This document shows positions 13,656 to 52,294 of a stretch of 64,000 nt of DNA, piece after piece. Numbering within the stretch: position 1 is the stretch's first letter; each line of letters opens with the position of its first letter. Below the pieces are notes generated by a model. It saw only the letters and a program-made list of their open reading frames with translations. It was not told the DNA's origin and searched no databases. The DNA is taken from assembly GCA_000827325.1 (NCBI GenBank), contig KN832874.1, positions 962,067-1,026,066 of the forward strand. The letters are read 5' to 3'. Source of the DNA: Oidiodendron maius Zn. Its lineage: Eukaryota; Ascomycota; Leotiomycetes; Myxotrichaceae. Both the position numbers and the translations under genes were made by a program.

Positions 13656-16067
13656 ATGTGGTTGACCAAGGCATTGTGTCTGACCCTGCTCGCAGGCGCG
13701 GGGTTGGCTGCCCCGTCTACCAAGGGAATCTACGACCTCCTCCAGCGCCGGATGCCCCTCCACGCCAGTAGCTTCGAGCTCTCGCTGGTCGACTCCATTG
13801 GCAATGCTTCTGCGGGATATGATCAATACGTGGTCTCGTCCACCTCCAAGGGCAAGATCTTAGTCGAAGGAACCACTCTCAGTGCCTTGTCTTCCGGGTA
13901 AGCCAGTGGCAGCTCTGCAATTCCCGACCGGTCCTACCCCTCCCCCGCCGAGTCCAGCTAATGGTCAATTGCAGCCTCCGTCGGTACTTGACTGATGTTG
14001 CCCATGTCGACATATACTGGTACATTGGCAGCAGACTGAATGTCGCGCCATTCTACCTCCCAGCCCTGAAAGCGCCCATTGAGGGAGCCAGTGTCGTGCC
14101 ATGGAGATACCACTTCAACACTGGTAGGAACCCGTGACTCTTTCCTATCTTTCCTCATTTCTGTTTTGTGACCCGTCATTCTGAACCATCTTCTAGTCAC
14201 ATTCTCCTATACCGGGGCGTTCTGGTCGTTCGAAGACTGGGAGTTGCAGCTCGACTGGATGGCCCTCCACGGAATCAATCTCCCTCTAGCTTGGGTCGGC
14301 GCCGAGAAGTTCATCGTCGAGATCTTCCAGGAAATTGGTCTCACTGACGTTGAAATCTCCACGTTCCTCAGTGGACCATCGTTCCAGGGATGGAATCGCT
14401 TTGGAAACATCCAGGGATCCTGGAATGGCGAATTGCCTTTGTCGTGGGTTGATTCGCAATTTGCAATGAATCAGCAGATAGTAGCGCGCATGGTCGAGCT
14501 GGGAATGACCCCGGTGCTCCCGTCTTTCACGGGCTTTGTGCCCAGCGCGATCTCGCGCGTGCTTCCTAATGCGAACGTGGTGATCGGATCTCAGTGGGAG
14601 GGTTTCCCTGCTGAATACACCAATGATAGTTTTTTGGAGCCAACCGACCCCAATTTCACCATGCTGCAAAAGAGCTTCGTGGCAAAACAGCAAGCGGCAT
14701 ATGGCAATGTCAGCCATATCTATACTCTCGATCAATTTAATGAGAATAATCCATCCTCTAGCGATCCCGACTACCTGCGCAACGTCTCCTACAGCAACTG
14801 GCAAAGCCTCAAGGCCGCTGATCCCGATGCTATCTGGATGATGCAGGGTTGGCTCTTCTTCTCCAATTCCGCGTTCTGGACGGACAGTCTCATTGAAGCC
14901 TGGTTTGATGGTGTAGACGTTGACTCTGACATGATAGTTCTGGACTTGTTCTCCGAGTCTCAACCCCAGTGGCAGCGCACCAATTCGTACTATGGCAAGC
15001 CTTGGATATGGTGTCAGCTCCATGACTATGGCGGTAATATGGGTCTCTATGGGCAGATTTATAACGTAACAATCAATCCCATCGAGGCTTTGGCCAACTC
15101 GAGCTCTCTCGTGGGCTTTGGCCTAACCATGGAAGGCCAGGAACAGGAAAACCAAATCATGTACGATTTGCTCCTCGACCAGGCCTGGTCACCTACGCCG
15201 ATCGATACTGAGCTGTACTTCGAGAACTGGGTAACGACCCGGTACTCAGGTAGCATTACTGTGCCGAAGGGCCTCTATAGTGCCTGGGAAGTGATGCGGA
15301 CCACCGTATATAATAATGCCAATCTCGCCTCGTCCGCCGTGACCAAGTCGATCTTCGGCCTCGAACCCAGCAAGTCTGGTTTAACAAACCGCACCGGCCA
15401 CCACCCAACCACGATCAATTACGACACAAACGTTCTCGTTCAGGCATGGAACTCGTTCTATGGGGCAGCGGCCCAGAATGCCTTCTTGTGGGGAAATCCG
15501 GTGTACCACTATGATCTCGTGGATATAACACGCCAGGTCATCGCCAATGAGTTCATTACCCTCTACGTCGATCTAGTAGATATCTACACCTCCCAAACTT
15601 CGTCCGCGTCTGCCCTTGCCTCTGCCGGCCGCAACTTGCTAGCCTTGCTGGACGCACTCGATCTCGTCCTCAGCACGAATGAAAATTTCCAACTCACTTC
15701 GTGGATTGATCGCGCCGTAGCGTGGGCAGAGGGCAACGCCACCAACGCCGCTTTCTACGAGTATAATGCTCGGAACCAGATCACTCTCTGGGGCCCTACC
15801 GGCCAGATCAGTGACTACGCGTCGAAAGACTGGAGCGGTCTCGTCTCGACGTACTATAAACCACGCTGGCAAATCTTCATAAACTATCTGCAGGCTACTC
15901 CTGCCGCGTCATATAATGCTACCGCCCTGCACGCAGAGCTCCTTGAGTTTGAGCTGAAGTGGCAAAACGAAGGCACCTATATGAAACTGAAGAGAGGCGC
16001 GACAGCTGATTTGAAGACGGTCTTGGTACAAACACAGCAAGAGTGGCCGTCAATGTTTTCGACATAG
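13656..16067 (+). CDS. Secreted alpha-N-acetylglucosaminidase, GH89
   Basis: Exons 13656-13897, 13975-14123, 14197-16067; 753 aa. A signal peptide (MWLTKALCLTLLAGAGLAAP) starts at the second in-frame start candidate; the upstream part of the frame lacks ATG. GH89 enzymes remove terminal alpha-linked GlcNAc by a retaining mechanism. Conserved segments are WYIGSRLNVAPFYLP, NTVTFSYTGAFW, WMALHGINLPLAWVG, then TLDQFNENNP with Glu ~313 and GFGLTMEGQEQE with Glu ~443. These match the two catalytic glutamates of human NAGLU (316 and 446) in context and spacing. Length fits the family. Many N-x-S/T sites suit a secreted enzyme. The GH95 and GH20 genes next to it suggest joint removal of sugars from complex glycans. 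Confidence 0.92.
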
Positions 16068-16354
16068 CTGCCATGTAATATATAGAACATCAAAACGTCG
16101 AGATAGAAATGTAATGAAATTCACCTGCTAGAATTATATACGCAAACTGAAACGTGGGTATGGAAGCATAAGGATGGAATTATGGTATGTATAAGTCGAA
16201 ATAATCCAAATTCAATTTACGAGGACATTTTTTTTTCTTCGGGGCGGAAGATAAATTTCATGCAAAGACCGATCTTCTACTAGGTTTTTTTTAGGTAACT
16301 TATGGCATATCAAGTATGAAGGAACTTGATAGTGATTCATGGCACCTAAATGCC

Positions 16355-19300
16355 TTAGTGTGAAGCCAGTATTTTACCGTTCTTGTCTACGATGTGGACT
16401 GGAATCCGCGTATTGCGTCCACTGAGCTGAGCCGATGTAACAGTTCCGCTCTCGTCCCAAGAAAAGTTTACCACGCCACCACCCCGGATGCGCAGTCCGC
16501 TCACGCTTCCAGATCCCCATTGGGTTGGGATAGCCGGCCCAAGGATGACAACTTGAATACTACTTGGGGAAGCTGTCTGTGCCGCCGATCGTCCGAAGTC
16601 ATGGACCAACATCTCCATGACTCCTGCAGTCCACCCAAAGTTTGCATCGATCTGGAAAGGAGGCGATGCGGATGGCCCGCTATACATTGAGAGAGCATTT
16701 CCAGCGATATTATGATTGACTGTCAATCGGAGCTCGTAATATCTGGAGGTAAACGGCGTGAGTAAAGTCAAATTTATAAATGCGTTATGGTAGAAGGGTT
16801 TCTTTGACTCACGCTTGATCCGTATTGTTCAATCGGCCCCAACAGGCTGAGCGCCAAACCTTTTCCCATCCGGCATCTGAATCGATGATGCCGACCCCAC
16901 GAGACCATAGCATTGTTGTGACAGCTTCAACAACAGTTTCGTTGTTGAATGTATTCGCTATCATGTAGCCAGGGAACCAACCATAGAGACCAGACAAATG
17001 GCGATGTGTATCATTCTTGACATCTTCATCAATTTTCCATTCTAGGCAGCCCGTTAGCCTGATAAGTTCCTTCTATAATTCAAGGTTGTATATTGCGGAT
17101 AAATAGAAAAGATGTTGCTGAACAAACCTTGCAACTGTCCCCATGACCCGATATGGATTCCTTTGTCAACATAACTCGAGGCATTTTTCACGGACGTAAG
17201 GAATGCCTGATCAGTGTCTCCAGATGCACTCCAACCAGCTTCAATGTGGTCGAACATCTCCCAGATCAATTGCTGATACTGGGAGCATCCAAATGTCTGG
17301 GAATATTTTGTCAGCTGTCTATTCAATATAGAAACTGACACGGCTGCCCCTCGACATCTTTCCCTCCTGGTGACGGTGTTGTCAATTACAGGTGACACAA
17401 AATAAATAAACTAACCGCGTTTCCATGCTCCGCGGAGTAGCATGGATTTGAGACCAATGTTCCGTCCTTGAAATACTCGTCCTCCACGAGCGTGGACAGC
17501 CAGAATTGAACCACACCTTTCAGAAGTGGATATCCGACTTTCTGGTACCATTCTGCATCTTGAGTATAATCAAAATAGTCCCAGACATGCTGCACTATAT
17601 AAAAGTTATGTCAGTAACAGATTTATCGCGAGATTCACATTAGAAACTATCAAGGAACAATGATCGGGTATTGAATTGAGACATACTCATCCATGCCCCT
17701 GCAATTGGGTATAATGCCGCGTCGTACCAGTTCTTTATTCTGTGGATATTAGCGAGATTAAAACCTAGATTTAAGATTCTCTACCCGGTATGTCCAAAAA
17801 GATTCATCTCATCATGGGTAACCCATCCAGCATCTGCACCATATACCAACTGCGCGGTTTCAGCTCCACGCGGCATCCAATTTTGGGTCATGTAGTTAAA
17901 CGCGGCAGCCTTAAGATCGCCCAAACCAGTCTGGTCGACTGACCAATGATTCCTATAACCGTTAGAGAATGCCTTTGCCTATGGGATGTGTAGATGAGAA
18001 TGAAATAAAAGGGAGCGAAAATACATTTGGAGATTAACATCCGCGTGAAAATCTGCCCCCCAAGATGGGCTTAATTGCTCTGTCCAGCGCCCTTGAAGTC
18101 CTGCAGGGAGAGAATTAGAGCGTGCGGAGCTCATAAACAAATATCGCCCTAGATCAAATAGTAACGATTCGACATAAGGGTCTCCATTATCAACTGAGTA
18201 TCCACTGATAAGTGCAGATGTTTCTTTGTTTGATGATCCCATGGTATCGGGTAAATTTAGAGTAAAGCGCCCCGAATAAGATGTAAAGTCGTCGACATGA
18301 GCAGATAGCAGACTGCTGAAGGACTTTTTGGCTGCAGCAGACACCGTTGACGACACCTTCGCTGCAGGATCAACTCCACGGAAAGAGAAACTATTCGCTG
18401 CATTTCCCTTCGTATCATCAAAGCTAGTATCAGCAGCGATCAGAATCTGGAGAGAAGTGGCCGTTGAAGATGGAATAACAAGCTTTCCAGTGCTGGAATC
18501 GCAGAAGTTTGTGCCCTGGTGATTCGGTATCACTAACTGCGCACGTGCATCGTAAGTCATTCCTAAATCTGGATATGAGAGCCCACGAAAGACAAGTGTA
18601 TTTCCAGAGCATGATAAGCTTCCGGCTGGACTGGTACGAAGCTGATTCTCCAGGCCGACAGTGGTCTGGGGAAGGGCCGCTGTTGAGTTAAGCTGATAGA
18701 CGCAGACTTGGTCTGGATAAGAGCAAAAAGTAGTCCTGAAACAGACATTAGATACAAAATGACTAATAGTTGATAAACAATTAACGTTACTGTGAGAAGG
18801 ATGCCCCGTTGGCAACATATGTGACTGTATGAACTCCGCTGGCCAGGTCCAGTGACCGTCGATATGAAGTTGGTGAGGAGATACCAGCAACATTTATTGT
18901 CAGATTTCCGAGTACCTCGTAGCTTCCATAGTTATTAACGGACCCCATAATATCCGTGTAATCTTTTATGATCAGTATTCTTAACCTTGAACCGGAAGGA
19001 CAGAACCTCACCTCCATATCCCTGTTTGAAAATGGTGGCTTGAAGTTGTCTGACCAGGGGTACAATAGACGAGGATGGGTTGCCGCCAGTATAGGACTAC
19101 GTATCGAGCAAAAGTTAATAAATTCGCTACATTGGAGTAAACATATTGCCTCACGGAATTCTCAAATGGACCACCGGTCCACAAGCTATCTACGTTGAGA
19201 TTCACATAGTCTGACCCAGCGGCGCCCAACGGCATTGCTATAAGCAATTAGCCATCTGCTTTATACAGAACGAGAAAAAAAGGACACTATTGTACTTACC

Positions 19301-19456
19301 GCCCAGCTTTCCATTTCCTAAGACGTATGCCGTGCGAATAAAATCAGATGTGACTGCTGGCTGACTCGACCACAGCGCTTTTCCAGCTGCGGTGGAAAAC
19401 ATAGCTGCTGCTACTATTGAATACATCACGGAAGCCTCTGGATTTTTTTTGCCCAT
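16355..19456 (-). CDS. Secreted GH95 alpha-L-fucosidase
   Basis: Eleven exons on the minus strand: 19300-19456, 19155-19237, 19012-19096, 18791-18962, 18025-18735, 17952-17785, 17739-17687, 17594-17416, 17296-17128, 17041-16813, 16742-16355; 797 aa. All splice joins keep frame. The N terminus has a signal-like stretch (MYSIVAAAMFSTAAGKA; an alternative ATG lies at 19426). GH95 landmarks are VLGNGKLGAMPLG, NVDSLWTGGPFENS, NNYGSYEVLGNL, GLQGRWTEQLSPSWGADFH, NLQMNHW, EHGNATFGCSQYQQL, NDTHRHLSGLYGWFPG and FQIDANFGWTAGVMEML. The family hydrolyses terminal alpha-1,2-fucose (some members alpha-galactose) with inversion. It is convergent with the GH89 gene, with 287 nt between the ends. Confidence 0.9.
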
Positions 19457-20720
19457 TGTCGTGATACAAATTACAGAGGACAGAGCAAGACTGATCTGAT
19501 GATGACAGGAGCAATAAATAGCTCGTGTGTGGCCATATTTCTGTCTTAGATCCCCTCACTCGACCGATCAACATTAGAAGAGGAGAAGGCGACGTGCAGG
19601 TATGTTCAGGCTAAACTCCCGTGAATTTTAACTCGTGAAGAGGAGCCTTCTGATGACGTTCTTCCTAACCATCGGATTGAAAAGTGATCATCGTGTGCTA
19701 TACCTAGTAAGTATGAATGTGCGATAGCACCCGATTACTCCGCACGTACTGTACAATGTCTGGAGCGCTTAGGGCCGAGCCAGGGCCGAGTTACACAAGA
19801 GAGAAGAATCGGGTATTAGCTGTGCATTTCTATTTACTTTACCGCTAAAGTAGCCGAAATAGCCAGAGAAACGTACTCCATTTCTCTTTCCGTATTTGGA
19901 AGAGACACCCCAGCCCCTCTTGTCTCAAATGCCATTAACTCAAGCTCAATTTAGCCGGCGCGCATTGTTGGTATAAAAGCCTTCTCGCGCGCTTGTTTAT
20001 GAGTCTGGCAGATCTCAGTTGCTTTTTACTTTGAATTATAATGCTGGAGGGCCATACACTTTGTCGCCAGCATGAATCAACCAGGAAGCTGTAGTCATGT
20101 TTGACATCTGAGCCGATGATTCTACCAATTTATCCTCGACATTCAAAATTGCTACATACAGAAAACGCGTCATGACCTCAGTGGGAACCCTTGATGAAAG
20201 TCGTTGTTTAACTACCAACAAGATATATCGCTTCCTCCTCCCCAGCTAGGCTTCTACTAGATTAACAGAAGGAAATTATTCGGCACTTGAAGAATTGGCA
20301 CCTGTTGCCGTATCAGAAACTTCGCAACAACCTATTACTAGGCCAACCATGGTCCTTTAATTGTCTCTAAACAGGAAATTTAAGAACACGAAGATGAGGT
20401 CTAATGGCTTACTAAACAGGAATGAAGCTTCCTAAAAATAATTTCCCTCTACAGCCTTTCGCCGATGTGAATACTGGCAGCCAAATCTTATAATAAATGG
20501 CCAGTGGTACGTTACGTTACCGGCGAAATAATCTTTGTTTAGCGCAAGAAAGGGGGAAAGTGGGATGATCTAACGTTACACGAAATATTATCAGGAAGGT
20601 GAGGTCCGTGTGTTGCGCTGTAAGCCCATGAAACCGAAAATCATATATTCAATAGAATTGCTCTAGAATTTAATTATCGATAACGTAAACGCGTGCTCTG
20701 ACTTTAACATAGCGGGCACC
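19457..20720. other. Intergenic divergent region (GH95 / GH20)
   Basis: About 1.26 kb between two divergent glycosidase genes, so it probably carries both promoters. TATAAAAG at 19972-19979 reads towards plus but lies ~740 nt before the GH20 ATG. A minus-strand 61-codon frame (20036-20221) is unexplained. Confidence 0.45.
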
Positions 20721-22997
20721 ATGACTCTCATTTGGCGGGTTGTTGGATTGCTGGGGTTTCTTCTTCCTGTCGGTATGCTATATGGCTTAGCATGGCTTGA
20801 GCGTGATTAAGCAGCTGACTGGAGACATGTTTGCAGCTGCGTCGTTTCTTCCTGGCATCCCTACAGTCCCGTTCAATGTATCGGTACCCGCAGAAAGTTA
20901 CTCAGTCACAAAACTTGAAGCAATTATTGTTGATTCTCGATACGCGAATACTGTTGATGCTAATGGATTGACACTAATTCCACCGACTCTTTGGAGTTTC
21001 GCCGAAACCTTTCGTAGTGATCTGGCGAGCATTGGAGTTAATGTTCCACTGATTCTTGGCCGCCAAGCTACTAAGAATGTTGTGTTTCTTACCATTTCTG
21101 GCAGCCCTAATGAGTTTCTGGACGCTGCCGGCCGCCCAACGTCTGAAGGATACTCATTGACGGTTACTACTTCAAGTATAAGTATTGCTGGAGCAAGCCC
21201 ACTTGGAACTTGGTGGGGCACACGGACAGTTCTTCAGCAAGCTATTCTTCACGGACTGAAGATCTCTGTTGGTGAAGGCGTCGACGCGGCCGGTTGGGGA
21301 GAGCGGGGAATGATGGTTAGTTTTGTCATGTGCTCCATCCGCCATGTTATGCTCAACACTTACGTGAAGTCTAGCTTGATGTCGGACGCCACTACTATCC
21401 TCCGGATTTTATAATTGAAATGTGCTCGTATATGTCGTATTTCAAACAGAATGTCTTTCACTTGCATCTCAGCGACCATGTATGGAATCCCGCGAATCTG
21501 TACTCCCATGAGCTTGCTCTAGAGCTCTATGCTGGATTCCGACCAGCTTCAAACGATCCAGACATTGCGGGTCTAGCACGTCCATCCAATGAGACTTATA
21601 GTCCATCCGTATTGGAAAACATGCAGCAGGAGTGCGCTGCGCGTGGGGTGACAATACTCCCCGAGTTGGAATCGCCCGGCCATTCAATAGCCACTACTGA
21701 CTGGAAACCAGAGCTTGCCCTGGCTGACTTCAGCATGCTAAATATCAGCTATCCAGAGACAATTCCGGTAGTTCAAAGCTACTGGAAAGCACTCCTCCCC
21801 GGATTTCACTCCAAAGTCGTACACATCGGTGCCGATGAGTACGCAAGCAATCTCGTGGACGAGTATACCTACTTCGTCAATACTATGAGCTCCTACATTC
21901 AAGGCATATCCGGCAAAGCAACACGCATCTGGGGCACGTTTCCTCCATCAAGTCTGCCGAATGTAACAAATGTAGATACCGCTGTTTCAATTCAACAGTG
22001 GGAGCTGGACCAAGACAACGCTCTGTACGACTTCGTGAACCGCGGATATCACGTTTTGAACTCGGATGACTTTTTCTATCTAGATCTTAAGTATTCGGAT
22101 TCATATCCTCCTGCTGTCGATCTTGAGAGGGTCTTCTTTGGTGCCCCGGATGGTGGGCCATATGCGCCTAACATTTTTGATCATTCGAATGCAACAAACA
22201 ACCCGCCCCGCGATAATCCTTATGTTCTCGGTCAACTTTGTGTTGTCTGGAATGATTGGGGCCCGAATGCTAGTACTTACAATGAAGCATACTGGATGGT
22301 CCGAGATGGACTCCCCGCGTTAGGAGACAAGCAATGGGGTGGTCAGCTCACACTGCCAGATTATCAGTCTATTTTCCCCACGCTGCAAGCTTCTGTGCCA
22401 GGACAGAACCTAGATCGCCGCATCCAATCTAAATCGTCTATTATTCTATCATATACGTTTGCCGAAAGCCACCAGTCCTTGCTGCCTATTGTCCCAGACG
22501 TATCTGGAAACGAGTACAATGGTCTCCTGGTTGGTGGATCCGAAGTGCGGAATGGCGTGCTCCATCTCAACGGAAATGGCTATCTCAAGACACCACTAGG
22601 AAGTAAAGGTCGCAATTACACTCTATCCTTCTCAGTAATTTCTACTTCATCAAATAAAGGAGGTATATTGTTCTCAGGGCCAGATTCATCTTTCTTAAAC
22701 GGCAATGGAACATCTCCGCTCCTAATGCTTGTCTCTGGCAACATTGCATATCCCGTAAATATGGTTCTCCCCTTTGAACAATGGGCAGACGTCACAATTC
22801 AGGGAATCGGGCCGCAAACTTTTATTTCAGTCACAGTCGAAAAATCTCCGAAGCAGACAGAAGAAGTCACAATCAATATGGGTATCTGGGGTGGTGGGAT
22901 GCAGGAGGGTTCGATGGCAATTGAAGCACCGATACAGAAAATTGGAGAGGGTTTTGTCGGGCAAATGAAAGATATATCCTTGGTAGGCACGGCATAG
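20721..22997 (+). CDS. Secreted GH20 beta-N-acetylhexosaminidase with C-terminal LamG-like domain
   Basis: Exons 20721-20772, 20837-21315, 21375-22997; 717 aa. The first short exon supplies a signal peptide (MTLIWRVVGLLGFLLPVA), joined in frame to ASFLPGIPTVPF. A GH20b-type N-terminal domain follows. The catalytic barrel starts with ERGMM, then LDVGRHYYP after the second intron. KVVHIGADEYASN at about 325-337 carries the Asp-Glu pair (331-332), where Glu is the general acid and Asp assists the substrate acetamido group. WGTFPPSS and VWNDWGPNAS follow. From ~527 to the end a beta-rich LamG/concanavalin-like domain is visible (VSGNEYNGLLVGG, NGNGYLKTPL), perhaps carbohydrate-binding. It releases terminal beta-GlcNAc or GalNAc. 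Confidence 0.9.
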
Positions 22998-29454: not shown

Positions 29455-30777
29455 ATGAAAACTTTCGCATTTTCAGCGCTTCTGCTAGTTGCAGTAGAAG
29501 CTCAATCTACAGTCTCTGCATGGGGACAGTGCGGTGGTGAAAGCTATAGCGGCAGTACGCAGTGTGTGGCTGGATACACTTGCATCTATGAGAATCCCTG
29601 GTACTCTCAATGCCAGCCTGGCTCCAGTCCAACCTCGGCCACATCCACTGTGTCCACGCCGACTTCATCGTCCTCGGCGCCAAGCGGAACTGGTAAACTC
29701 GAATGGGTTGGAGTTAACGAATCGGGTGCCGAATGGGGTACGGCGTACCCGGGAACTGAGGGAGTTGACTACTTTTTCCCGTCCACGACTACAATCGGAG
29801 TACGTACTCTCCTTCATCTCTATAAACTGACGTGCTATTGACCCCGTTTCCATCAGACTCTAGTTAACGAAGGATATAATATCTTTCGCGTGCCATTTGC
29901 TATGGAACGTATGGCCGTGGGTTCAATTACTGCATCACTAAATTCGGCCTATTTGACGCCATACTCCAATGTTATCAACTTTATCACCTCCAAGGGTGCG
30001 TATGCCATCGTCGATGCGCACAATTATGGCCGTTACAACGGTCAAATTATCACCGACACGGCTGGATTTCAGACTTTCTGGAACAACCTTGCTAAGGTAT
30101 ATAGCAGCAATTCAAAAGTGGTACGTATTTGAGCATCTACGACAGACTCGTAATCTTAGAGCTGCGAGTGAAAATTCCAGCATGTATTAAATGGTTACTG
30201 AGCAACTGCTAACAAAGATGTTAACATGCAGATATTTGACATCAATAACGAGTTCAATACAATGGATGAAAGTTTGGTTTTCGAACTTAACCAGTCTGGA
30301 ATTGACGGGATTCGCGCCGCCGGTGCTACCAGCCAATATATCTTCGCAGAAGGAAACAGCTGGACTGGTGCTTCAACTTGGAACGTTACTAACGACTCCC
30401 TGAAGACACTAAGTGATTCGTCAAATAAGCTGGTCTATGAAATGCATCAATATTTAGACTCTGATAGCTCCGGTACCGGATCAGACTGCGTTTCAAACAC
30501 GGTTGGTGTGGACCGTGTCGAAGGCGCAACGGCCTGGCTTAGGGCTAATGGGAAGAAGGGGATGTTGGGAGAGTTTGCTGGTGGGAACAACAACGTTTGC
30601 TTAGCCGCTGTGACAGGACTGTTGAATCATCTCCAAGCCAATTCAGATGTATGGCTTGGAGCAAGCTGGTGGGCCGCCGGTCCCGACTGGCCTGCAGGGA
30701 CATGGGCGAGCTTTGAACCCCCAAGTGGTATCTCGTACCAGTATTATGATACCCTGCTAAAGAGTTATGCACCATAA
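29455..30777 (+). CDS. Endo-beta-1,4-glucanase, CBM1-GH5
   Basis: Exons 29455-29799, 29857-30120, 30232-30777; 384 aa; both introns phase 0. Signal peptide [19 protein letters not shown]1 at about residues 20-54 ([15 protein letters not shown], with [11 protein letters not shown]) whose aromatic face binds cellulose; a Ser/Thr/Pro linker to ~80; then the GH5 barrel. Catalytic residues in context: FDINNEF (Glu ~210, acid/base) and GMLGEFAGG (Glu ~317, nucleophile); [12 protein letters not shown] and [11 protein letters not shown] are further family marks. It is a retaining secreted enzyme acting on internal cellulose bonds, close to fungal Cel5A/EglB types. Expression is probably under cellulose induction and carbon repression (inference). 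Confidence 0.93.
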
Positions 30778-31374
30778 GTTTGTATGTATGAGATTGCTAC
30801 GATAGTTGAAATAGGACTAGTCTGTGAGCCAAAGTGGAAAACGAGACTAAAATTTGGAGAATCTATCTTGACAATATACCTTCAAATTCGTATTTTCTTT
30901 AAGCTACCACTCTTCATTCAAATAGCATTGTATTGTGTTGATTGAATCCACGCCAGTATTACAGGAGCATAGATGTGATATACTAACCTAATTGGGCTTA
31001 ACGAGCCTAGACAGTACGAGGCACTGATCAACTCGTTATTGGGAGCCATGAATCAACAAGCCAAGAGACACGGCAGAGGCACAGCGAGGCTGTGATGCGC
31101 CACAAAAATTCTTTCCTGAAGGCTTTTTGCGGGCGCTGACGGCAGTTCACAAACACAAGACTCCCAGTGCATGTCAAAACATCGACTCAACGTCTCAAGG
31201 GCTGAGCCAACGACTTGCCAGCTCCTGCGGATTAGACCAGAATTAGGGACAAGCGTCTGTAGACGCTTCATCAGCGACAGCCTCGTCACTACTCTGATGG
31301 CGCATCCTCCTCAAGCGCCGAAGCCTCTAATGAGAAAATTCGTCGTATTACCTGAATAGTCTCAGCATACAATC
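30778..31374. other. Intergenic, endoglucanase 3' flank and receptor promoter
   Basis: About 600 nt. No distinct element is recognised. Confidence 0.4.
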
Positions 31375-34300
31375 ATGGTATCTAGGGCTGTGCGGCCTAG
31401 AGGCCGTGAGGATTTCGAGATAGCTATCATCTGCGCCCTGCAAGTAGAGGCCAATGTAGTGGAAGCTCTGTTCGATGAGTATTGGGATGAAGATGGTGAC
31501 CGATACGGAAAGGCACCGGGAGATACAAATGCATATACTACGGGGGCGATCGGTCATCACAATGTGGTACTGACACATATGCCAGGTATCGGAAGGGGCA
31601 ACGCCGCGAGCGTAGCCTCTAGCTTCAGGTCTAGCTTTAGAGGAATCAAGCTTGCCCTAATTGTCGGAATTTGTGGCGGGGTACCAATCGGGATCAATTC
31701 TGAAGAGATTTTACTCGGCGATGTTATTATCAGCACTGGAGTTATACAGTATGATTTCGGCAGGCAAGTACCCGATAGATTCATTAGGAAGGATACCCTG
31801 GAGGATAATCTAGGAAGACCGAACGCTCAAATTCGCTCTTTGCTGTCCAAGTTAGGAGGAAACAGGAGCCGTAAACGCCTAAGGAATAACACCTTTTGCT
31901 ACCTTCAAAAACTACGCGAGAAGGAAGATTTTCCAAAAGCTCGATACCAATACCCAGGTGCAGCCGAGGACAAGCTTTACGAGCGGACGTATCGTCATAA
32001 ACATCACAGCCCACCAGCATGCATAATATGCATGGAATGTACGAAGAAAGAGGACAAAGTGTGCGGAATTGCTCTTGAGTCGTTATGTTCAGAGCTGAAG
32101 TGCGACGAAAACAAGTTGGTTCGCCGCAATAGGCTGTCTGAGAGCATTGCACTAGGGACAGCGGCAGAAGAACAAGAACCTTACATACATTTTGGCTTAA
32201 TTGCATCCGGAGATACAGTTATGAAATCAGGCGAAGACCGTGATGAGGTTGCAGCTAGAGAGAAAGTCATCGGATTTGAAATGGAAGGCGCTGGAGTGTG
32301 GGATAATTTCCCTTGTGTCGTGATTAAAGGAGTTTGCGACTACGCAGATAGTCACAAGAACAAGAAGTGGCAGGGCCATGCCGCGGCTACCGCTGCTGCT
32401 TGTATGAAAGCCTTCTTGAAAGAATGGGTTTCAACGGATTCCCCCCCACAGCCAGATGCAACAACTCAGGGTGAGTGACTCTCGTTTGTTAGGCCTTTCC
32501 TCGGACTCGAGTGCAAGCGAGCTCATGGGCAAAGAAACTCCCATCGCAGGAGGGAAGAAAGCTAATTAATGGCACCTAGCCCATCATGCGACATATGGAA
32601 GCCTCCAAGCCTCCAACCTGCTTACAAATGCCAGCTTCTTAGGATTTGACGGCATCGATTCAAGAGGTGTTCTTCAGTTCTCAGCAAGCCAAGTTGTGGA
32701 AACACGAACTGTAGAAGGAGTAATAACGAGCATCAATGGTAAGTTATACCAACACAATTAAAATCTGTCATCAATTTAACGAGTCGATTCCAGCCGCTCA
32801 AGAAGAGCAAGACTGCCTGACGGCATTATTCTTGACCAACCCATGCGACGACCGACAAGGGCTTACCAATGAAAAAGGATCACGAGTGGATGGCACATGC
32901 GAATGGATCAAGACTAATAGACTTTACGAATCATGGCTTCGTTCTCGCTCACAGCTGCTATGGATTTTCGGTGGTCCTGGTAAGGGCAAAACAATGCTGT
33001 CGATTTTTCTTGCTGAAGAGCTGGAGAGAAGTACGAGGAAGTCGCAAGACACATTGTTCGTGCAATACTTCTGTGATAACAATGATGAAAAGCGAAATAC
33101 AGCTGTTGCTATTGTAAGAGGGCTAATTTCTCAACTTCTATCACAACGGCCGACACTGTTCCGTCATATCCTGCCAAGTTTCAGGACTCAAAAGGAATCT
33201 CTGTTCGCTAATTCATCATTCGAAAGTCTCTGGAGGATCTTCGAGACTATGGTTCATGATCCAATCCTCGGCACTACAAACTGTGTCTTAGACGGTCTCG
33301 ACGAATGCGATAAAGTTTCATTGGAAGCGCTTGTTAGGAAGCTTGAGGCCTTGTTCTCAACGAAATTCGAAAAAACTTCAACTTGCTATCTCAACTTAAT
33401 CATTGTTAGCCGTAAGCTTCCGGACTTAGCATTGGGGACCTTATTAAGCGCTCCCTGTATACAGTTAGATGCCGATGCAGCTGACGAGGTTAACCACGAC
33501 ATTTGCCGGTTTATTCAGGTCAAAGTCAACGAACTCTCGCTCCATCGGCATTATCCGGAACAGCTACGTAGGCATGTGGAAAATGTCCTCTTGAGTCGTG
33601 CCGCAGGCACATTCCTCTGGGTAGGAATTGTAGCCAATGAGTTGAGAAAATACACATCATCAGAAGTCGAAAAGGCCCTGGAGCTCTTTCCACCAGGATT
33701 AGAAAGACTTTATGACCGCATGCTGCTTCAGATTAACGACCAACGACGAGAAATTGCCGCCAAGATATTGCGCTGGGTTGTTATGGCTGTCCGCCCCTTA
33801 ACTCTCACAGAGCTGATTACAGCGATTGAAACACCTGTTAGACATTCTCTTGGCTTGGGTTACGTCGAGACAATTCGAGACCGGGTGTCATATTGCGGAT
33901 ATTTCCTGACGATCAAGAATAATAAAGTCGGCCTTATCCATCAGTCAGCCAAGGAATATCTCTTACGCGAATCCCCTCATCCACACCCGCAGCTAGAGTA
34001 TTTTCGAGTCAAAGGACAGCAAGCAAACCTCGAAATTACGCGAAAGTGTTTGAATTACCTTCAAAATAGCGTTTTTGCGGCTGGCAAAGTTAATCAGGGG
34101 GCGAGACACAGCCAGCTTAAAGATATGTCCAGGATGTCGGCTTTTCCTTTGATTTCTTATGCAGCGATTTACTGGCCTGAGCACGCGCGATCTCTACCCA
34201 GTTCAGTAGATGTATTTGATTTATCACTCCCCTTTTATAAAGAGAAGTCTCCAGTTCGGCAGGCTTGGTTGAAGACATTTTGGGCTACTAGAGAGCATGA

Positions 34301-35639
34301 AGACCTACCCGATTCATTTTCGCTACTGCATTTAGCTTCTTATTTTGGCATAGTTCCACTTGCTGAAAATCTGCTTTTCAAGAAGAGCTCGACGAATAGA
34401 CTAAGATTCCATAGCTCAGGAAATAAAGGGGATAGTTCAGTGAACGAAACGGATGGTAATGGCCAAACAGCACTATTTTGGGCTGCCAAAGGCGGGCACC
34501 CAGCGGTCATACAACTCCTACTAGAGAATGGTGCAGATATTGAAGCCAAGAATTCAAAAGGGTGGACTCCATTGCACTCCGCAGCCGAGAGAGGCAATGA
34601 AGCTGTCGTATGCTTATTACTAAAGAATGGGGCAGATGTGAAAGCAAAGGATGAGAGTGAATGGATGGCGCTACACTCCGCGGCTAGGGGTGGGTATAAG
34701 GCGATAGTTTGGCTCTTGCTATCGACTAACGAGCGCGACATTAACGTGATGGATAAGGAGGGAAATACAGCTTTGCACATGGCGGCCGGTAACGGACACA
34801 ATGCCGTTATGCAGCTACTGTTAGAAAATGGTGCTAATATTGGGGCAAAGAATTATACCAAGTGGACACCGCTACACTCAGCATCTGAGAGAGGAAGCGG
34901 GGCGAGCGTGCGGCTACTGCTAGGAAATGGGGCAGACGTTGAAGCAAACACTTCTAACGGATGGACAGCGTTGCATTTGTCGGCTAGGAGAGGGCAGGTG
35001 GCAGTAGCACGACTATTGATTGAAGCCGGGGCGTTTATTGAGCAGAAAGACGAGAGTGGAGCAACAGCACTACATCTTGCAGCCGGGAGTGGCTATATAG
35101 CAGTGGTTCAGGTCTTATTAGAAGAACAAGTAGATATCGAAGCAGAGGATAAAAGTAGGGCGACAGCTACTCACTGGGCGGCCAAGAGCGGGCATGAGGC
35201 AGCAGTGCGGCTACTGTTAGAAAAAAATGCGGATATCGAGGCAAAGAACTCAAATGGATGGACGCCGTTGCATTCAGCGTCTTGGGGTGGGCATGAGGCG
35301 GTGATACGGCTATTGCTAGACAGGGGGGCGGACATCGAGGCAAAGAACTCTGACGGATGTACGGCGCTGCATTTGTCGGCTGTGAAAGGGCATCAGACAA
35401 TAGTACAGCTATTGTTAGATAAGGAGGCGGAAATCGAGGCCAAGAGTTCTGATGGGTTGACGGCGTTATGCTTAGTAGGTAGGAGTGGACACGAGGCTAT
35501 CGTGCGGCTGCTGCTCGCAAAGGGGGCGGATGTCGAAGCAAGAGATGGGAGCGGGAAGACGGCACTAGACTGGGCGGTTAAATCCCAGCACAAAGCGGTG
35601 GTACAGTTGCTGCAAGAGAAGGAGCAGATGTCACACTGA
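31375..35639 (+). CDS. PNP-NACHT-ankyrin NLR-like receptor
   Basis: Exons 31375-32470, 32580-32738, 32794-35639; 1366 aa. Residues 1-~365 form a purine-nucleoside-phosphorylase-like domain: FEIAIICALQVEANVVEALF, GIGRGNAASVASSF, LIVGICGGVP, EMEGAGVWD and VIKGVCDYADSHKNKKWQGH. A NACHT module follows, with P-loop WIFGGPGKGKTM (~478-485) and Walker B CVLDGLDECD (~585). A helical linker leads to about twelve 33-residue ankyrin repeats from ~970 to the end, many very similar to each other. This is the STAND layout of fungal NLR-like proteins tied to non-self recognition and regulated cell death. Several PNP-type N domains in such receptors cleave nucleosides or nucleotides; catalysis here is untested. 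Confidence 0.92.
34450..35636 (+). repeat. Ankyrin repeat array (about 12 units of 99 bp)
   Basis: Units of 33 codons repeat phrases such as GWTPLHSA, VRLLLE and GADIEAKNS. Units at 34550-34640, 35240-35340 and 35340-35440 look especially close, which suggests recent duplication or gene conversion. This region is expected to be the variable recognition surface. Confidence 0.85.
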
Positions 35640-51046: not shown

Positions 51047-52294
51047 ATGCAGTTCTTCGTGTCTCTTCTTTCTCTTTCCATGGCCACTTTGGCCGTGGCC
51101 ACGAGCTGTAACACACCAGTATGTTAATCCGATCCTCTTGGACAAGGTGAAACTGATTTTGCCACAGGATGGATCTGGAACTTGCGTGTCCACATCCAGC
51201 TGCGGAGGCTTCTCCGTTGCCGGCTACTGTCCCGGTGCCGCTGATATCCAATGCTGCATTTCGAAAACTTGCTCCACACCAGTTCGTTCCTTGTCGTTGC
51301 ATTTGATTTATCCATTCTAATCGGTATTGTAGTCGGGATCTGGTGTATGTAAGTCGACCAGCAGCTGCGGTGGGAAGTCTGTCTCTGGATATTGCCCAGG
51401 ACCGAGTAATATCCAATGCTGTGTTGAGAGTAGTAGCACTTCTTGCTCCACTCCTGTTTGTTCCCCTGCTTTGTTCTATTGAATTTTACCTGACTTGGAG
51501 TCTAGTATGGATCTGGGACCTGCAAGTCCACTTCCAGCTGCGGTGGCTTCTCCGTTGCAGGCTATTGCCCAGGCGGAGCTGATAATCAATGCTGTCTTTC
51601 TAAGTCTTGCTCCACTTCAAAGGGCTCTGGAACATGCAAGAATACAAGTAAAGGTTGTTCTGGCGGAGGCTTTATTGCCGGTGCATGCCCTGGCGACAGC
51701 TCCGTTGAGGTACGTGATTGCTAACTACTCCGTATTTTTTTCAGTACAGATTTGTCTGGAGTACTAACTGCTATACAGTGTTGCGTTCCAGGTGCTTCCA
51801 GCGGTGGTGGCAGTGGCAATCTGCCAGGTCTCTCTGCCACTCAGTCTTCTCACGCAAGAGCTATCATCCAGGAAGCAAAGAACGAAGGCCTAGGCAACCA
51901 AGGCTGCCTTGCTGGTATCGCAACCGCTTTGACCGAGGTAAGTTGATCGGCACGCTTGTTATGATTATATTACTCACACATACAGTCGAGCATCCTCATC
52001 TACGCCAATTCTGATGTTCCGGCCTCACTCAACTACCCACACGATGCAGTTGGCAACAACTACGACAGTGTCGGTATCTTCCAGCAGCGAGCAGTGTACT
52101 ATCCTAACATCGCCGCGGATATGGACGCCGCAAAATCCGCAGCTCAGTTCTTCGCTATCATGAAGGGCATCAGTGGTTGGCAGACAATGAATGTCGGTAC
52201 TCTCTGCCAGAAGGTCCAGAAGTCCGCATATCCCGACCGATATGAAGAGAATGTAGCAGCTGCTCAGTCTATCTGTTCTGCAGACTCTGATTAA
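51047..52294 (+). CDS. Secreted Cys-rich module protein with bacterial-type lytic (peptidoglycan hydrolase-like) domain
   Basis: Six exons, all introns phase 0: 51047-51118, 51168-51281, 51333-51455, 51506-51709, 51779-51937, 51986-52294; 326 aa. The signal peptide ends near LAVATS. Three similar modules of about 38-41 residues follow, each starting at an exon boundary, with core GTCxSTSSCGGFSVAGYCPG and QCC; a fourth, divergent module (CKNTSKGCSGGGFIAGACPG) closes with CC from the next exon. The C-terminal ~140 residues read ARAIIQEAKNEGLGNQGCL, GIATALTE-SSI, LNYPHDAVGNNYDSVGIFQQ and QKVQKSAYPDRYEENVAAAQ. This is the pattern I know from actinobacterial secreted lytic-transglycosylase-like proteins, where the Glu after TAL is the likely catalyst. 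Inferred role: attack on bacterial wall, with the modules as binding units. Confidence 0.78.

Follow-up and report, generated by a model that had tools for sequence, protein, structure and literature searches.

A gene of Oidiodendron maius Zn joining four six-cysteine modules to a predicted GH184 muramidase domain

Here we describe a gene on the plus strand at positions 51047-52294 of the window, a 64,000-nucleotide stretch of contig KN832874.1 of Oidiodendron maius Zn (GCA_000827325.1). The gene model, derived from the DNA sequence, comprises six exons that join into one protein of 326 amino acids, and its limits agree exactly with those of the original prediction; the signal peptide, the cysteine-rich copies, the C-terminal domain of ~140 residues and the motifs quoted there, among them TALTE and DSVGIFQQ, are all present in this protein. 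All five introns are bounded by GT-AG and lie in phase 0. If left unspliced, the 49- and 50-bp introns would shift the frame, and the 51-, 69- and 48-bp introns would each bring in an in-frame stop (read by eye); a CTRAY-like branch sequence was seen, also by eye, in four of the five. The exons carry the following features:

51047..51118, plus strand: exon 1, signal peptide (MQFFVSLLSLSMATLAVA-TS, from hydropathy and an A-x-A cleavage motif read by eye) and Cys1 of module 1
51168..51281, plus strand: exon 2, Cys2-Cys6 of module 1 and Cys1 of module 2
51333..51455, plus strand: exon 3, Cys2-Cys6 of module 2 and Cys1 of module 3
51506..51709, plus strand: exon 4, Cys2-Cys6 of module 3 and Cys1-Cys4 of the diverged module 4, ending directly 5' of the CC pair
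51779..51937, plus strand: exon 5, CC pair of module 4, Gly/Ser linker and start of the GH184 domain, with Glu224 as the last codon
51986..52294, plus strand: exon 6, remaining GH184 domain with Asn249 (52058-52060), DSVGIFQQ, Asp251 (52064-52066) and the stop codon

Further glycan-degrading genes lie ~20-35 kb from this muramidase gene. A GH89 alpha-N-acetylglucosaminidase (14172-16067), a GH95 gene (17979-18893, minus strand) and a GH20 gene (21375-22997) are clustered at window positions 14172-22997, and a GH5 gene is found at 30202-30777. At window positions 31360-35639, a PNP_UDP_1 open frame precedes one of 970 aa that combines NPHP3_N/NACHT with very regular ankyrin repeats, a pair resembling, in its predicted domains, a fungal NLR-type immune receptor.

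The N-terminal part of the muramidase gene product is built entirely on one cysteine pattern. All 24 of its cysteines (residues 21-173) fall into four registers of six, C-x8-C-x5/6-C-x8/9-C-x7-CC, each of which we call a module:

Residues 21-54: module 1 (cysteine register)
Residues 59-92: module 2 (cysteine register)
Residues 100-133: module 3 (cysteine register)
Residues 138-173: module 4 (cysteine register)

Compared as DNA, exons 2 and 3 and the opening stretch of exon 4 share 66-80% identity, with none of 500 shuffles as good; module 4 is 69% identical both to exon 2 and to module 3 (again 0/500 shuffles as good), and its 67% identity to exon 3 was equalled in 76 of 500 shuffles. These shuffle-tested identities bear out the proposed arrangement of three near-copies and a fourth, diverged one. 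Introns 2 and 3 bear no significant likeness to each other (63 of 500 shuffles as good), so a recent duplication of exon plus intron is not demonstrated in this gene. The modules had also been proposed to start at phase-0 exon boundaries; the boundaries are indeed in phase 0, but the structural unit begins a few residues earlier (C-x-T-P before the boundary, x-G-S-G after it). Since the exon boundary falls just past the C-x-T-P of each unit, each exon corresponds to a circularly permuted module. Module 4 is itself split by an intron directly 5' of its CC pair.

Scans of the whole 326-aa protein against Pfam and NCBIfam returned zero matches. The module, searched by itself, hit no Pfam family at a credible score (one module of the gene at C17:376k, described below, had two weak matches, E 0.11 and 0.21, below cut-off), no NCBIfam family among the scanned proteins of the muramidase gene, C9 and C18, and no PDB chain up to E=10. 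A structure prediction for the exon-4 peptide and two other exon peptides, none of which holds a complete module, had a mean pLDDT of 44. The SH3-like wall-binding domain is absent from the muramidase gene, as a genome search placed its five matches at E<=0.01 elsewhere.

The C-terminal domain, which begins at about residue 185 behind the Gly/Ser linker, had been proposed to be a peptidoglycan hydrolase, and a search against known structures strengthens this proposal considerably. Residues 186-323 match 8b2e, the Kionochaeta enzyme KsGH184, at E=1.2e-49 with 60% identity over the domain, and the Thermothielavioides terrestris enzyme TtGH184 (8b2h) is matched at E=1.4e-68 with 76% identity over the domain, in an alignment (127-323) that also spans unlike, poorly aligned N-terminal parts. 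By sequence, then, the domain almost certainly belongs to the GH184 muramidase family. The Glu of TALTE, Glu224, aligns with Glu41 of KsGH184 and is Glu in all 61 rows of an alignment of fungal, bacterial, plasmid and phage domains; a KsGH184 E41A mutant had no activity (PMC10394673).

A second position is less regular. Asn249 stands at the place of Asp66 in KsGH184 and Asp150 in TtGH184, a column with 57 Asp, three Asn and one Arg among the 61 rows, the three Asn belonging to the muramidase gene product and two identical Dactylosporangium rows; nearby, Asp251 is kept in 55 of 61 rows. Asp66/Asp150 was proposed to lie near the substrate and to have a stabilising role, which the authors call potential and did not report as essential (PMC10394673). 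Furthermore, the counterpart of Asp66 in phi29 gp13 is Gln (PMC10394673). Given this Gln, Asn249 is no bar to GH184 membership and an active enzyme would be expected, perhaps with altered properties; the substitution of the usual Asp by Asn may thus alter activity. The gene had been put forward as part of a poorly described system. That description does not fit the catalytic domain, as GH184 was defined in 2023 by Moroz et al. (PMC10394673), but it does fit the N-terminal six-cysteine array, without match in Pfam, NCBIfam or the PDB.

The C-terminal sequence pattern had been called typical of actinobacterial proteins, and the relatives listed are in agreement, coming from actinobacteria and from actinobacterial plasmids and phages. 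Searching 84,980 bacterial and archaeal species, each represented by a single genome, with two peptide patterns, we found 27 GH184 loci, all in Actinomycetota; in a sample of 396 genomes from this phylum, the only one sampled in this way, 26 had a GH184 match at E<=1e-3, a count that takes in the known centre genome. Bacterial GH184 members are already in print. Among phage records, 516 of 50,697 had a match, 515 with actinobacterial-phage names (judged by the first word) and one named Microcystis, and the 20 phage matches listed are minor tail, virion structural, tape measure and hypothetical proteins and one lysin A. Among plasmid records there were 188 of 72,556, of which the 20 listed and ten named genera are all actinobacterial; 13 of the 20 plasmid GH184 proteins among the matches listed are M23 or DD-metalloendopeptidase proteins. 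A scan of viral contigs with one GH184 sequence found no relative, and we judge that scan insensitive because the phage collection holds 516 GH184 records.

A 61-row tree unites the three fungal rows in a single clade (100/99) and joins this clade to seven phage rows and one chromosomal row (96/94); these phage rows were drawn from the best-scoring 20 of 516, a choice that favours near kin of the query. Removal of four long rows left the fungal-phage grouping at 100/96. In a 30-row tree without phages, a Micromonosporaceae row was the neighbour of the fungal clade (85/86), and a 53-row tree, with eight loci fewer than the 61-row tree, placed the fungi in a weak group (76/85); L047 was excluded from the 53-row, 61-row and reduced trees as a long branch. 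The phage GH184-type domains nearest the fungal clade belong to tail, tape-measure or lysin genes of Gordonia, Mycobacterium and Corynebacterium phages. The grouping with phage-type domains makes an acquired origin likely, as had been predicted, and the simplest reading is that the GH184 domain was probably transferred into fungi, with a phage or prophage tail enzyme as the best present candidate for the source. With unrooted trees and no more than three fungal rows in them, the donor is to be taken as a lead and not as a result.

We next consider where else the six-cysteine module occurs. Module walking inside this one genome (45.9 Mb, 58 contigs), with four module queries and a GH24 search, gave at least 19 module places at E<=0.02, of which 18 were read; C1:5555k (E=3.4e-5) lies outside these 18. 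A further candidate, C11:1731k, was dropped as weak (E=0.43). At seven of these 18 places the modules are joined to a peptidoglycan hydrolase, which belongs to one of three families (GH184, GH24 or NlpC/P60-like), and no other enzyme class was recognised among the 18:

Muramidase gene: 4 modules, GH184
C9:951k: 5 modules, NlpC/P60-like, single uninterrupted open frame (no Pfam match; C-terminal part alike by eye)
C17:22k: 2 modules, NlpC/P60-like, single uninterrupted open frame
C18:710k: 2 modules, NlpC/P60-like, single uninterrupted open frame
C21:422k: 3 modules, GH24 (E=1.4e-20), one gene read from adjoining open frames
C11:1749k: 5 modules, GH24 (E=2.9e-24), one gene read from adjoining open frames
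C17:376k: 7 modules, an SH3-like domain, then GH24 (E=1.8e-21)

The NlpC/P60-like assignment makes use of a DCSGF motif, which we take to be typical of NlpC/P60, and is accompanied by Pfam matches below the curated cut-off in two of the three proteins (E=0.006 and 0.001) and by none in C9:951k. In the region C11:1747500-1753500, DUF7029, DUF7223 and the first of five modules share one open frame with GH24 downstream; going by this arrangement, a role of DUF7029/DUF7223 in attack on bacteria is possible.

The seven-module gene at C17:376k (C17:374000-377500 and C17:377417-377527, with its first module in a 572-aa open frame) gives the clearest view of how such arrays grow. Six of its exons each run from one CC pair up to the following one, with a phase-0 end, and the six exon-plus-intron units are 85-92% identical in their exons and 77-91% in their introns, which shows tandem exon duplication. 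Its last CC pair shares one open frame with the SH3-like domain (8b2g, E=2.7e-30), and GH24 follows. The forecast that the phase-0 layout would allow module number to change is well supported: the genes hold 2, 3, 4, 5 or 7 modules, and exon-plus-intron duplicates are seen in this one. An intron directly before the CC pair is common to the GH24 genes C11:1749k and C17:376k and to module 4 of the muramidase gene, a common position that suggests shared descent of module exons across enzyme classes.

The remaining 11 of the 18 places carry no recognised enzyme, which suggests that the module also acts alone and is not merely an enzyme accessory. Ten of the 11 hold a complete module followed by a second that is present in whole or at least in its opening part, and in five of these ten the protein stops at once or a few residues past the second CC pair; at the eleventh, C9:1390k, there is just one module. 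A signal-peptide-like start was seen, by eye, in at least six of the ten, and Pfam scans of fragments from eight of the 11 found no family. Nor is the module required by the enzymes of the other places. Three of five GH24 loci have modules (C11, C17:376k and C21), the GH24 gene at C3:628k has only an SH3-like domain, and in that at C18:109k neither was found; likewise, the genome's two strong NlpC/P60 matches (C3:2077k and C8:806k) are not at module places. None of two GH25 matches is near a module place. Outside this genome, a module profile gave no convincing match in 14 of the 27 GH184-bearing bacterial genomes (in five large ones scoring was limited to 150 candidates); seven of the 14 had short weak matches, with a best E of 0.005, which we read as chance. 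Plasmid records had no module at E<=1, and scans of viral contigs, of the insensitive single-sequence type, had no match.

We consider it probable, on these grounds, that the gene encodes a GH184 muramidase in which four modules replace the SH3-like domain as a peptidoglycan-targeting cassette. The secreted enzyme would cut the MurNAc-GlcNAc backbone of bacterial peptidoglycan through its GH184 domain, with Glu224 as the putative catalytic residue, and the modules, via the Gly/Ser linker, would hold it on the bacterial wall by several weak simultaneous contacts. Genome-wide, the same cassette would target GH184, GH24 and NlpC/P60-like enzymes to peptidoglycan, would be produced without an enzyme in small, probably secreted proteins, and would change in copy number through phase-0 exon duplication. 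Enzyme activity, wall binding, multivalency and the role towards bacteria are here what we infer from sequence. The original prediction had spoken of binding modules; fusion to peptidoglycan hydrolases supports this indirectly, and we regard it as rather probable, as an interpretation of these partners, that the modules bind the bacterial wall. The strongest single evidence for the module as a putative wall-targeting unit is the gene at C17:376k. Since KsGH184 is active and has no binding domain (PMC10394673), the modules may be dispensable. As to the use of such enzymes, action against competing bacteria, as originally proposed, would be one candidate role; the role suggested by the GH184 authors is feeding on dead bacteria (PMC10394673).

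Other functions of the module would be compatible with parts of this evidence. The modules could instead bind the chitin or glucan of the fungus's own wall and so keep the muramidase at the hyphal surface, where it would act as a shield; the small module-only proteins, several of them with a signal-peptide-like start, could then be wall proteins, and the modules of C11:1749k do follow DUF7029 and DUF7223. We think this unlikely, as the 23 GH18 (chitinase) matches are all remote from module places (where the two share a contig, ~80 kb is the shortest distance), all seven recognised enzyme fusions are to peptidoglycan hydrolases, and the module of C17:376k adjoins an SH3-like domain related to TsCWBD, which binds bacterial cells but does not bind Avicel (PMC10394673).

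The uniform functional class of the recognised partners also weighs against modules that bind nothing and act as disulfide-rich spacers, shielding a long linker from proteases, and module-only proteins would have no purpose under such a scheme. A range of two to seven modules would suit a spacer, and during crystallisation the long linker of the T. terrestris and P. virgatum GH184 enzymes with an SH3-like domain was cut (PMC10394673); all the same, we hold a pure spacer to be quite improbable. Finally, the module might be an antibacterial mini-protein, defensin- or knottin-like and directed at lipid II or membranes, such that the enzyme would be a fusion of killer peptides and lysozyme. With six cysteines, a C-terminal CC pair, a unit of ~38 residues and a spacing that presumably resembles beta-defensin, and with about ten module-only proteins in the genome, this has some appeal. 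However, the module matches no Pfam family or PDB chain, the module-fragment prediction (mean pLDDT 44) gives no usable model, and the modules look, by eye, low in positive charge, so that we rate it very improbable.

Returning to the module as a peptidoglycan-targeting cassette, a broader proposal can be made, which we put forward tentatively and with somewhat less than even confidence. The six-cysteine module may represent a new class of fungal bacterial-wall-binding mini-domain, encoded at 19 or more places in this genome, attached to three kinds of hydrolase in two to seven copies that would arise by phase-0 exon duplication, set beside an SH3-like domain in at least one enzyme and made in enzyme-less secreted forms; together these would form an undescribed antibacterial arsenal, whose catalytic domain here maybe came from a phage tail enzyme. 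Fungal attack and feeding on bacteria are known mainly from a few lysozyme families and defensin-like peptides. What is known here is GH184; what is new is that a six-cysteine array takes the position of the SH3-like domain and that the module extends over three hydrolase families and module-only proteins. A full-text literature search, which returned mostly titles and the openings of abstracts and had patents outside its scope, found no paper describing the module. Just as the SH3-like domain led to GH184, the shared module may lead to more fungal enzymes directed at bacterial walls, and arrays of two to seven modules offer a natural system for relating module number to wall binding. If confirmed, a small disulfide-stabilised binder of bacterial walls would be of use for lysin design and feed enzymes.

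Several known systems invite comparison. In Trichomonas, laterally acquired NlpC/P60 enzymes are likewise a case of a eukaryote using bacterial-derived peptidoglycan hydrolases on bacteria; organism and enzyme family differ, and the excerpted text of that report mentions no six-cysteine module (PMC6299479). The GH184-type domains of actinobacteria, plasmids and phages, found in tape measure, minor tail, lysin A and M23-coupled proteins, share the domain and its conserved Glu, and most rows also have DSVGxFQQ; they differ in being 24-46% identical over the aligned domain and, in the 14 genomes searched, in having no convincing module. Closest are the fungal GH184 enzymes (TtGH184, 8b2h; KsGH184, 8b2e), which are alike in the catalytic domain, its Glu and its C-terminal position behind a linker, and which differ from the four-module enzyme with Asn249 described here in having Asp66 (Ks) or Asp150 (Tt) and, in most, an SH3-like domain. 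Indeed, of 15 fungal GH184 enzymes made and tested in 2023, 14 have an SH3-like wall-binding domain and one does not (PMC10394673), a share biased by the way in which the enzymes were identified, namely by module walking that set out from that domain. Recognition of the SH3-like domain itself came through its partners, namely amidase, C40, M23, GH24, GH73 and GH184 (PMC10394673), the same logic that we apply to the six-cysteine module, and its loss from TsGH24 lowered the OD drop from 0.50 to 0.17 (PMC10394673). The two show no significant sequence match, and the SH3-like domain is a single unit of ~70 residues whereas the module has ~38 and comes in arrays of 2-7. Yet both are N-terminal, disulfide-bearing and common to several peptidoglycan-active enzymes, and in one GH24 gene of this genome they occur together.
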